In this document: piece after piece, positions 13,201 through 64,000 of the stretch
Position numbering within the stretch: the first letter of the stretch is position 1
Layout: each line of letters starts with the position of its first letter
NCBI GenBank assembly: GCA_905160935.1
Contig: CAJHZI010000741.1
Span: 2,485,001-2,549,000, forward strand
DNA from: Enchytraeus crypticus
Taxonomy: Eukaryota; Annelida; Clitellata; Enchytraeida; Enchytraeidae
DNA length: 64,000 nucleotides
Direction of reading: 5' to 3'
The notes under the pieces: generated by a model
The model's input: the letters and a program-made list of their open reading frames with translations, nothing else
Told to the model about the DNA's origin: nothing
Database searches by the model: none
Position numbers and translations under genes: made by a program

Positions 13201-14129
13201 GTATACATGTATACTATTAGTACTTTGATTTATTTTATAGATTGAACGCAGGCGCGTGGTGTCCCAACACAATATCCTGGGGAGGCAACAACAGAACCGT
13301 TCTATGCAGAGTACCAGCTGATAACAGGTTCTTAAACACTACTACTACTAATAATAAAGATGTAACGTCCTTTTCTTCATCCAAGGATGATGTCAGGGAC
13401 GTTCCCACAGCAGTTATGCAGAGTAGCAACTGATAACAGGTTCTTAAACTTTAACTCTGATATAATTATATATATTACGCATTAGTCAAATTAAAAATCT
13501 ACTTTGGTTGCTTAGTTGCTGTGGATTAGTCATTTGGTTTCAAAGGCAGCAGTCAATGTGACAGATAAGATCAATGTAAAATTAAGTAAAGTATTTTTCG
13601 ACTGTTGTTATACAATCACTAACAATAAATATGTATATAAAAATTGTAAACCATACTTATTTAATAATAATTGTAAGTCATACTAATTTAATAGTGTTCT
13701 CTGGGAATGACGCCCCTGCCCAGTAAATGTTAGTCAAAGCTGAGGAAGGCGCAGGGGGCCCACCTCTCGTAATAAGCAGATCCCCCAAGAATAACGGTAT
13801 ATCAAAAGGAATGTTAAATGATTTAAATATTTACTCATATGTGGACATGAAGAGGAAAATTTAAAATTGAGACGAGTGGAGCGTTTTATACCATGGACCT
13901 GTCAGTAGCACTGAGAGTGAGTAAAATCAAATTCTAGTGTATGTTGTCTTCAGAATAGAGTATCGCCGGGCTGACGGATGATGGTGTTGTTGTTGGTGTT
14001 GTTGTTGTTGTTGTTGTTGTTGTTGTGTTGTCTACAGAATAGAGTATCGCCTGACAGACTCTAGCTTCAATCCTCACTTGCCGACGATGACGATGATGAT
14101 GATGATAATGATGATGATGGTGATGATGA

Positions 14130-14165
<36 letters not shown>

Positions 14166-61800: not shown

Positions 61801-64000
61801 TTGTCAACTGCTAACCGAACTGAACTTTCATTTTCAACGAACCGAACTGAACCCAAACTCTGGAAATTCATAAAATTTCCATCTCTACGTGGCGCTAGAC
61901 AATTACATTATTTATTGATATTTTGTTGTAGTATGGCAACACAGCGCTGAACAATTACATTATTTATTGATATTTTGTTGTAGTATGGCAACACAGCGCT
62001 GAACAATTACATTATTTATTGATATTTTGTTGTAGTATGGCAACACAGCGCTGAACAATTACATCATTTATTGATATTTTGTTGTAGTATTGCAACACAG
62101 CGCTGAACAATTACATTATTTATTGATATATTTGATTGTAGTATTGCAACATGGCGCTGCACAATTACATTATTTATTGATATATTTGATTGTAGTATTG
62201 CAACATGGCGCTGCACAATTACATTATTTATTGATATATTTGATTGTAGTATTGCAACATGGCGCTGCACAATTACATTATTTATTGATATATTTGATTG
62301 TAGTATTGCAACATGGCGCTGCACAATTACATTATTTATTGATATATTTGATTGCAGTATTGCAACATGGTGCTGCACAATTACATTATTTATTGATATA
62401 TTTGATTGTAGTATGGCAACATTGCGCTGGACAATTACATTATTTATTGATATATTTGATTGTAGTATGGCAACATGGTGCTGCACAATTACATTATTTA
62501 TTGATATATTTGATTGTAGTATGGCAACATGGCGCTGGACAATTACATGATTTATTGATGTATTTGATTGTTGTATGGTAACATGTCGCTGCACAATTAC
62601 ATTATTTATTGATATATTTGATTGTAGTATGGCAACATGGCGCTGGACAATTACATGATTTATTGATGTATTTGATTGTTGTATGGTAACATGTCGCTGC
62701 ACAATTACATGATTTATTGATATATTTGATTGTAGTATGGCAACATGGCGCTGGACACTGTTGCCAGGTCTGTATTGAGAAGAAGTGAGGCGATAGTTCC
62801 TCCTCCAGCGACTTATGATAGAAATTTCTTTGAGGGTAAGAAATTGCTCAGATTTCACTTTCTCTCTTACCTTATAATGTTATTCTCTATATGGATGTCT
62901 GTGCCTAATTTTGTTCAAAAATAAGAACATGTTTGGCTGTTGCATTATATGAAAATGTCCTTTTTTAAATTGCCTTTTGGTTTCACACACTTGACAGACG
63001 CTCGTTCTGCCGTTTTCTTGGTTAAGTTGCTGTTTTTGTAGTTTTTCGTTTTATCCTTCTTTCCACGACTATTAATATTATTTGCATATATATATTATTT
63101 GCATATATATAAAGTTATAAACTGTAGAAATGCACTGAAGTTGCTGTCAACACAATTAAGAAAACCTTTCAACAACCTGGTTTTTTTTTTTTTATCCTGT
63201 CAACACTCGGTTTTCCAATCCGTTCATGTATTCACCGAGTTCGCTTGATTCGGCTAAATTTTGAAGTTCATAGAATTTACACTTGTAGTGATTGAGATAA
63301 GTTTACTGTTACAGTTTCATTGCAACCTACATCTGTATTTCCTGCTAGATAATTTTAGCATGTTATATTTTTATCTCTGCTTTTTAGTCTATTTCATGTC
63401 CATAGATATTACATATATCATGTTTCTTTGTGCAGATGCAAAGCGAGCTATGATGGCCGTGGGCATTATAACTTTTGATGGAAGTGCTGTAGAGAAAGGT
63501 CTGTGATTCAAATTCTTAATTAGATCATTTTGCTCTTGTGTTTTCATGTTGTTTTCTTCTTTAGCAGCGTGCTGGTTTAGCCAAGTATCTCAGGATGAAC
63601 TAAGTAATGAAATCAAATAATTATTTAAAGTCAGTTATTTATTTTTCTATTTTTAACATATTTTTGTATTTAATTGTTGTCAATTTATTTGATTAATGTA
63701 TTAACGTTTCTATTATGCTGCAGACTGTTGATTGTACTGCACTTTTCAAGAAGCATTAATTATTCTTGCTTAGAATGGTGCTCTTACAATACAGTCTTCT
63801 TTAGCTCATATTTGGTATAGTAATCTTTATGTCGTAATCATTCGTTATTGGTTGTGGTAACGATGTGTTGACTGTTGTTGCAGACATCACCATCAGTAAG
63901 TTTCTCAACAGAATCCTCGGCATGGAGGTGGCCATGCAAAACGCTCTCTTCCAGTACTTCACCGACACCATGGCGGCGTACATCTCTGAGGCCAAGAGGG
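42796..64000 (+). CDS. SBNO1: Strawberry notch (SBNO) helicase-like protein, 24 exons, partial
   Basis: Exons: 42796-43425, 44835-45221, 46375-46677, 47515-47617, 48593-48847, 49451-49535, 50030-50123, 50555-50716, 51496-51631, 51932-52037, 52496-52649, 53230-53412, 54037-54134, 54555-54682, 55452-55694, 56003-56206, 56653-56897, 57720-57854, 58248-58383, 58983-59095, 61244-61315, 62736-62835, 63436-63498, 63884-64000 (runs off). All GT/AG and in frame, about 1417 codons. Landmarks: [11 protein letters not shown] start as in SBNO1, [19 protein letters not shown], Walker [14 protein letters not shown] (about 561-573), DECHKAKN (about 677), [33 protein letters not shown], acidic and Lys-rich linkers (about 955-1060), [52 protein letters not shown] proteins are nuclear SF2-like ATPases acting in transcription regulation (Notch/Hippo contexts in animals). 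Exon 2 is a tandem duplicate of exon 1's second half. The initiator exon is missing or unidentified; symbol given for the SBNO1-like N-terminus of what is probably a single-copy gene. Confidence 0.95.
44620..44668 (+). repeat. LINE-A tail with GAT repeats
   Basis: Short 5'-truncated LINE-A end (ccctggttaaactgggattt followed by GAT repeats) within the copy-1 intron of SBNO. Confidence 0.7.
45309..45462 (+). mobile_element. LINE-A 3' fragment inserted after the SBNO duplication
   Basis: A 154-nt 5'-truncated LINE-A end (agaggtagaccacatttgat ... GAT repeats), coding for [16 protein letters not shown] C-terminal sequence. It is flanked by perfect 18-nt repeats attgataggttgtttttg (45291-45308 and 45463-45480). 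The paralogous site in copy 1 (about 43483-43500, attgatgggttgtttttg) has no insertion. Confidence 0.93.
46684..47165 (+). repeat. Repeating block with (CT)n after the SBNO exon 3 donor
   Basis: About four blocks of gtaaacaatgtctcat, cttcaacagtgacatgatcc and gttcattctc, each followed by CT-rich sequence. The first block starts inside the donor region at 46678-46684, so each block begins with a gtaaac word like the donor itself. Confidence 0.85.
47583..48275 (+). repeat. 38-bp minisatellite carrying an SBNO exon 3' end and donor
   Basis: The end of the exon at 47515-47617 (TTTCTCTGATAATTACACTC CTTCCAAAG then GTTAGT) is repeated about 17 more times at 38-nt spacing. Units keep ctctgataactacgct, ttctaaag and a gttagtca donor. 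Only the first copy is joined to the exon. Reading past any donor gives K-G-stop (AAA GGT TAG). Confidence 0.95.
49010..49450 (+). repeat. 66-bp minisatellite carrying an SBNO acceptor
   Basis: About six decoy copies of an intron end plus exon start (gttgtatgcatcag then GTGACGG or ATGACGG) at 66-nt spacing lead to the real acceptor at 49450 (gtatgcttcag then GTGACGGAGCC), the exon that encodes the Walker A motif. From a decoy acceptor the frame meets TAA or TGA within one unit. Confidence 0.92.
49733..49925 (+). repeat. 24-bp minisatellite in an SBNO intron
   Basis: About eight copies of a unit containing atggcttgctgaata. It does not touch an exon. Confidence 0.9.
50870..51365 (+). mobile_element. 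LINE-B fragment with an internal 33-bp repeat
   Basis: Degraded LINE-B C-terminal sequence (about 50880-51125), then five to six copies of a 33-nt unit with gaggagttaaatgtcatgga (51139-51330), then the LINE-B end ccaatgggcagtgcactgag and GA repeats. The unit is the last coding/3' UTR junction of the LINE (gtggaggagttaaatgtcatgg equals the WRR..SW end), so the repeat arose inside the LINE copy. Confidence 0.75.
53555..53830 (-). repeat. Composite SINE with LINE-A tail, reverse orientation
   Basis: Starts with reversed GAT repeats and tgaatcccagtttaactagg, then accgaatgccctttctgacg, and ends at the head ttcatacaacccggacacaa. Near full-length for this family (about 275 nt). Located in an SBNO intron. 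Confidence 0.8.
54925..55140 (+). repeat. About 32-bp minisatellite in an SBNO intron
   Basis: Four to six copies of tcctaatcttaataaatatg followed by aggcatagttg, the later ones degenerate. Not at an exon edge. Confidence 0.85.
57370..57450 (+). repeat. SINE end with (ATT)n tail
   Basis: Contains ggacgtccctgacatccctg and aaacggacgttaaaccttc followed by ATT repeats, matching the end of the SINE-like copy at 8700-8925. Confidence 0.6.
58770..58892 (+). repeat. LINE-B tail with (GA)n
   Basis: Contains catggccctgccaataggca and gtgcactgtgagagag followed by a GA run. Same order as at 51340 and 25810, showing GA as the natural tail of LINE-B. Confidence 0.7.
59120..60885 (+). mobile_element. Non-LTR retrotransposon (CR1/jockey-like RT), truncated and broken
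   Basis: In an SBNO intron, same orientation as the gene. Three frames in succession carry one protein: [34 protein letters not shown] and [10 protein letters not shown]; then [20 protein letters not shown]; then [18 protein letters not shown]. After a gap it continues [45 protein letters not shown] and [14 protein letters not shown] to a stop at 60612. The 5' part (endonuclease) is absent. At least two frame changes are present. A deletion near 59970 removes the region that should hold the catalytic F/YADD box. The 3' end is an ATT-repeat tail near 60870-60883. It is dead. Confidence 0.85.
61710..62757 (+). repeat. 54-bp minisatellite carrying an SBNO acceptor
   Basis: About 16-17 copies of a unit of 51-55 nt, each with gcgctggacaattacattat, a T-rich tract and ttgtag followed by TATGGCAACATGGCGCTG. 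The last copy supplies the real acceptor at 62735 and the first 20 or so bases of the exon 62736-62835. From a decoy acceptor the frame reads [12 protein letters not shown] then TGA. Early copies (before about 62110) differ in a block (aacacagcgctgaac), showing two sub-families. The first unit is interrupted by a ccgaac-rich insert. Long open frames on both strands here are artefacts. Confidence 0.95.
61737..61885. repeat. AACCGAACCGAAC word cluster inside the minisatellite
   Basis: About 130 nt made of ccgaaccgaac and tttcattttcaacg words in tandem, inserted after caattac of the first 54-bp unit. The interrupted unit resumes at gcgctagacaattacattat. In composition it is analogous to the GGCC cluster at 41255. 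Confidence 0.7.

Follow-up and report, generated by a model that had tools for sequence, protein, structure and literature searches.

The window analysed here is a stretch of 64,000 nt from the 524-Mb assembly of Enchytraeus crypticus, carrying genes for glutamine synthetase (GS), MRPL45, MED22 and SBNO (strawberry notch), several of whose exon edges are overlapped by short tandem repeats (Table 1). Hand-built models of the four genes, based on open frames and splice sites, show homology to known proteins across their junctions. The MRPL45, MED22 and SBNO models have no internal stops across junctions, and the GS model was open once one spurious exon was removed; this candidate (13695-13722) was discarded since exons 8 and 9 are in phase when joined directly. 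The MRPL45 homology alignment has a two-residue gap close to the junction at 23240. The search for SBNO exons covered the window from 42796 onwards. Overall, the models comprise 80 splice junctions and 39 introns totalling 33,677 bases, with a median intron length of 837 nt. On contig C643, from which all the samples come, minisatellites (period of at least 10, score of at least 80) occupy 9.6% of the window, 7.1% of the neighbouring 195 kb and, in five spread stretches of 10 kb, 4.5% of the sequence.

Arrays or two-copy duplications cross seven of the 80 junctions, and one more array ends exactly at an acceptor. A sequence-only reading of the window had counted at least eight repeat units straddling exon edges. 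Seven of these junctions are indeed crossed, whereby GS exon 8 and the MRPL45 junction at 23240 carry two-copy duplications rather than arrays, and the MRPL45 array at 21513-21676 holds about 0-2 exon bases and abuts its exon without straddling the edge (exons 1, 3 and 5 of our MRPL45 model seem to be exons 3, 5 and 7 of that reading). The ninth repeat, said to include the stop codon of MED22, was recovered as described. At GS exon 9, each copy holds the acceptor with up to about 45 exon nt, and (TGT)n/(GAT)n microsatellites lie between the copies. In all nine cases, the extra copies are on the non-coding side (in the intron or, at MED22, in the 3' untranslated region), and reading through the outermost copy gives the conserved protein. 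Because of these two features, the exon is taken as the source of the unit and the array as its product. The exon share of the units varies from 0-2 to about 45 nt; the position relative to the junction is not constant, and there is no fixed breakpoint.

Table 1. Gene models of the window, repeats at their exon edges, and junction copies at myosin-head exons elsewhere in the assembly.
Feature	Position	Strand	Details
GS gene	4210-15497	+	10 coding exons, open 462-aa product; Gln-synt_C E 2.4e-89
MRPL45 gene	19141-24888	-	6 exons located, N-terminal exon(s) missing from the model; mL45 in solved structures E 5.7e-75
MED22 gene	34501-36888	-	3 coding exons; Med22 E 4.8e-24; solved-structure match E 3e-35
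SBNO gene	42796-64000	+	24 exons located, continues past window end; AAA_34 E 7.8e-134, Helicase_C_4 E 1.1e-97
GS exon 8 donor junction and second copy	13303-13449	+	exon end 13327; 35 nt, copy 112 nt downstream; two-copy
GS exon 9 acceptor, four copies	13952-14314	+	copies 98, 230 and 314 nt upstream; exon start 14268 in last copy
MRPL45 array abutting acceptor	21513-21676	-	32 nt x ~5; ends at acceptor AG of exon 21512-21363
MRPL45 donor junction and one copy	23156-23257	-	exon end 23240; copy 70 nt into intron, (ATC)n spacer; two-copy
MRPL45 donor array at 24753	24564-24773	-	33 nt x 6.3; unit holds 21 nt of exon end + GTGAGT
MED22 stop-codon array	34042-34512	-	19 nt x 24.8; stop in first copy (coding sequence end 34501), others downstream
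SBNO exon 4 donor array at 47617	47587-48267	+	38 nt x 17.8; unit is 31 nt of exon end + GTTAGTC
SBNO exon 6 acceptor array	49018-49457	+	66 nt x 6.7; exon start 49451 in last copy; 7 exon nt per unit
SBNO exon 22 acceptor array	61890-62757	+	54 nt x 16; unit is intron end + AG + 22 exon nt; exon start 62736
Myosin L044 acceptor			54 nt x 2.2; local junction copies
Myosin L044 donor			one copy, 19/24 nt matching
Myosin L045 donor			41 nt x 5.6
Myosin L046 acceptor	G000:C336:1033600-1034479		83-nt unit, five copies, ~40 exon nt
Myosin L058 acceptor			single copy at -51

Several further arrays had been placed within a few nt of exon edges. Three of them, at 5546, 6853 and 10163, begin about 10-14 nt away, and by Tandem Repeats Finder (TRF) the array near 12334 starts 12 or 28 nt from the edge, depending on the row. 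Near 46678, the TRF start is 60 nt off, and degenerate copies were seen nearer by eye. The stretch 9757-10153 consists of about 80 copies of GTACT, ending some 10 nt short of the GS exon 5 acceptor.

Frequent overlap with exon boundaries by chance is expected here, because the introns are short and minisatellites abundant. The sequence-only reading had regarded the placement as beyond chance, and this did not hold in the window. Rotation of the gene models against TRF arrays (period of at least 10, score of at least 50) gave 4 of 80 junctions within arrays versus a mean of 8.3 expected, and 4 distinct arrays touching junctions versus 6.4. A constrained null was also used, with each array confined to its own intron and allowed an exon overhang of less than one unit, because only such arrays should survive selection. 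Under it, 4 of 35 TRF arrays crossed a junction versus 3.05 expected (P 0.36), and 4 of 23 versus 2.66 at a score of at least 80 (P 0.26). A duplication finder that includes two-copy cases returned, over 15 settings, 3-6 crossings among 29-43 duplications versus 1.8-3.7 expected (P 0.06-0.25); a stricter earlier finder gave 3/35 versus 1.6 (P 0.21) and, at the top score cut, 3/17 versus 1.09 (P 0.08). With the window flanks cut to 160, 350 or 700 nt, 5 crossings were found versus 3.91, 4.91 and 3.61 expected, respectively (P 0.19-0.58). No null tried in the window yielded a significant excess of junction crossing.

Positions were also compared one by one with 24-mers. A local copy was present for 6 of the 80 window junctions (7.5%), for 2366 of 10925 intron positions (1826, or 16.7%, after removal of low-complexity sequence, and 8.8% in the bin next to the exon), and for 44 of 1973 exon-interior positions (2.2%). 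Copy coverage of the window by 24-mers had no peak at junctions. Overall, the junction copies are largely explained by the minisatellite load and the short introns.

Junction-spanning duplication reaches beyond the four genes of the window. A search of the whole assembly listed 81 matches to myosin-head exons, 31 of which were examined together with limited flanking sequence (350 nt for 22 of them, 160 nt for 9), picked from the match list before their sequence was viewed and with preference for open frames and different genes. A splice-site score defined a clear site at 56 of the 62 edges, and the other six were left out. Local junction copies were found at 5 of the 56, on other contigs than the window, and 14 of 1070 exon-interior positions have a local copy of their own; pooled with the window, 11 of 136 junctions (about 1 in 12) have a local copy. 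Nearer the window, the predicted exon C643:2404895-2405019 (minus strand), a putative Hv1-like exon for which Pfam returned no family, has two further upstream copies of its acceptor with up to about 35 exon bases. The repeats thus do copy splice sites along with adjoining exon sequence, as the sequence-only reading held, and not in its four genes alone. The intron portion of the L046 array is itself a TTGA-like simple repeat.

Exons predicted ab initio constitute weak evidence either way. With a predictor trained on the four genes, junctions with copies numbered 1/60 in the window (each gene being left out of training in turn), 2/104 in 200 kb of neighbouring sequence, after removal of 5 repeat-like predicted exons, and 0/22 in five spread stretches. 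The window value falls below the 6/80 of the hand annotation since five of those six junctions were missed when their gene was left out of training; of the two neighbouring cases, one is in the Hv1-like exon and the other in a doubtful exon. Two exons predicted on this contig, C643:2590067-2590219 and 2634354-2634506, have an identical translation, which suggests a tandem gene or haplotype duplication. The translation is reminiscent of a Slo/BK-type potassium channel.

These observations support the idea, to which we assign a probability of about 0.7, that near-neutral tandem duplications fall over exon edges in a minisatellite-rich genome and that the junction repeats are mostly or wholly by-catch of abundant repeats. 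Junctions would be hit often because the sampled parts of the genome are rich in minisatellites. The segment founding a minisatellite would overlap an exon edge by chance, so that a tandem duplication of some 20-110 nt takes in an exon end with the start of the intron, or an intron end with the start of the exon. After such a duplication, the outermost splice site and the whole exon would remain intact, and additional copies, landing in the intron (past the stop codon in the case of MED22), would be nearly neutral. The copies might then multiply through slippage or unequal exchange, and the outermost site would be the one used in the RNA. Purifying selection on the exon part of one copy may keep crossing duplications recognisable for longer than wholly intronic ones, and a modest excess of crossings might arise because the conserved exon part prolongs detectability.

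Several results weigh against by-catch as the whole explanation, and some of them speak for a process linked to the junctions themselves, in which duplications begin preferentially at exon ends through transcription- or splicing-linked breaks or the reinsertion of splicing products. A mild closeness of repeats to exons is visible in the window: 9 of 35 arrays cross a junction or lie within 20 nt of one versus 5.1 expected (nominal P 0.049), and for short-period repeats the count is 3/14 versus 0.65 (nominal P 0.025). At the myosin exons, local copies are equally common at junctions (5/56) and at nearby intron positions within 330 nt (6-17%). This independent sample has 7 junction-crossing cases among 21 duplications versus 1.73-2.65 expected (P 0.001-0.009), a small-number result in which the short flanks conceal intron-interior duplications, the edges were set by splice-site score, two of the seven (L035 and L042) are weak alignments absent from the five local-copy cases, and L044 and L046 lie 5 kb apart, probably in one gene. 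Pooling the window and myosin data gives a nominal Poisson P of 0.0016-0.0066 if the window introns are taken at full length; trimming the window flanks to 350 nt raises it to 0.019-0.065. Across the nulls for the duplication finder (window, cut flanks and myosin), enrichment ranges from 1.0 to about 4; the excess is at most one- to fourfold, and exon conservation alone might yield that. Since the crossing excess in the window is non-significant under every null tried, copy coverage there does not peak at junctions, and the breakpoint shifts with the variable exon overlap of the units, a junction-linked origin as proposed by the sequence-only reading seems unlikely to us, with the myosin excess leaving room for a modest bias.

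It is still less probable that selection keeps the arrays, the other option named in that reading; the extra copies would then serve as spare or decoy sites by which splicing or gene expression is adjusted. The set of 50 extra copies tested, which excludes those of MED22 and the last irregular ones at the SBNO donor, has GT or AG preserved in 47 and lost in 3, and the human CBS gene has a repeat whose copy number ranges from 16 to 21 (PMC2630376); both might be read in favour of such a role. However, the genes and exons concerned are unrelated and their units different, and no splice-base column stood out as protected when the unit-by-unit layouts were compared by eye. If used, all 50 extra copies would lead to a premature stop, while the outermost site reads on. 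The 'poison copy' idea that might be built on this was ruled out because arbitrary GT/AG sites within introns also give a premature stop, in 2930 of 2968 cases, so that the rate at the copies matches chance. The dinucleotides and premature stops of the 50 copies, together with the columns inspected by eye, gave no sign of selection retaining the extra sites, which, judged from sequence, look near-neutral. Repeats collapsed or inflated by the assembly at these loci are the least probable explanation, and a very improbable one, since copies within arrays differ by substitutions and small indels and a like architecture is present on other contigs.

The kind of repeat described here is already known, contrary to the notion that no class of splice-junction minisatellites had been described. 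The 31-bp variable number tandem repeat at a donor of human CBS, c.1444_1467+7(16_21), consists, by its notation, of 24 exon and 7 intron nt (PMC2630376), a design shared by the arrays at SBNO donor 47617 (31 + 7 nt, about 18 copies) and MRPL45 donor 24753. As in that repeat, the unit holds exon bases and a splice site at the seven junctions crossed in the window, two of them two-copy. The CBS repeat sits in a single human gene and its length alleles are known, whereas here several junctions are affected in one assembly, known from genomic sequence. A 2001 study by Lievers reportedly found an effect of the CBS repeat on enzyme activity, which could be taken to favour a tuning role. CBS c.844_845ins68, a 68-bp duplication of the intron 7/exon 8 junction with strong preference for the distal site (PMC2630376), resembles the junctions present in two copies at GS exon 8, MRPL45 23240 and myosin L058; the CBS case is a human polymorphism of two copies only, backed by RNA evidence, in contrast to our genomic data.

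In human segmental duplications, 27 curated intron modifications were ascribed to internal tandem repeats at exon-intron boundaries; such repeats average 30-bp units and 4 copies and can be spliced out at these boundaries (PMC2812944). They belong to recent primate paralogs and half of them lie in coding exons, whereas the genes studied here are conserved and their coding sequence is unchanged. Intron creation via tandem duplication is a published model as well (PMC4974935). It shares with the present arrays that a duplication supplies splice sites and that the duplicate is removed as intron, which for our arrays is presumed; a new intron arises in the model, whereas here an existing one has apparently been lengthened, as far as seen. 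An earthworm paper describes intronic minisatellites and, in the part covered, none that span junctions (PMC12783039). No report of a comparable density of junction-spanning repeats was found in the open-licence literature searched, and the density seen here seems unusual.

Some other features of the window deserve mention. Part of the SBNO exon 42796-43425 recurs farther downstream in a second exon (44835-45221), which is in frame and starts exactly at an acceptor AG, and the similarity seems to extend into the next intron. Another SBNO exon contains a coding tandem repeat with a KPKKE-like motif (56041-56129), and a long intron of this gene holds open frames which, by eye, resemble a retrotransposon reverse-transcriptase remnant (59131-60609). 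Between MRPL45 and MED22 lies a 101-nt tandem pair of 100% identity (28785-28989), which is either very recent or an assembly artefact.

For gene prediction, the arrays are a warning, as a single one may place some dozen spurious splice sites, or even more, next to the true one. We consider it doubtful that exon ends are preferred birthplaces of tandem duplications, accounting for the local copies at about one junction in 12, and that array length tunes gene output; were this true, the genome would amount to a natural genome-wide experiment on how the spliceosome chooses the outermost among numerous sites that are almost identical. If the observed rate holds, junction-spanning repeats would be far more numerous in this organism than among the human examples found, and it would offer a system for asking how splicing picks among many near-identical adjacent sites and whether exon ends give rise to more duplications.

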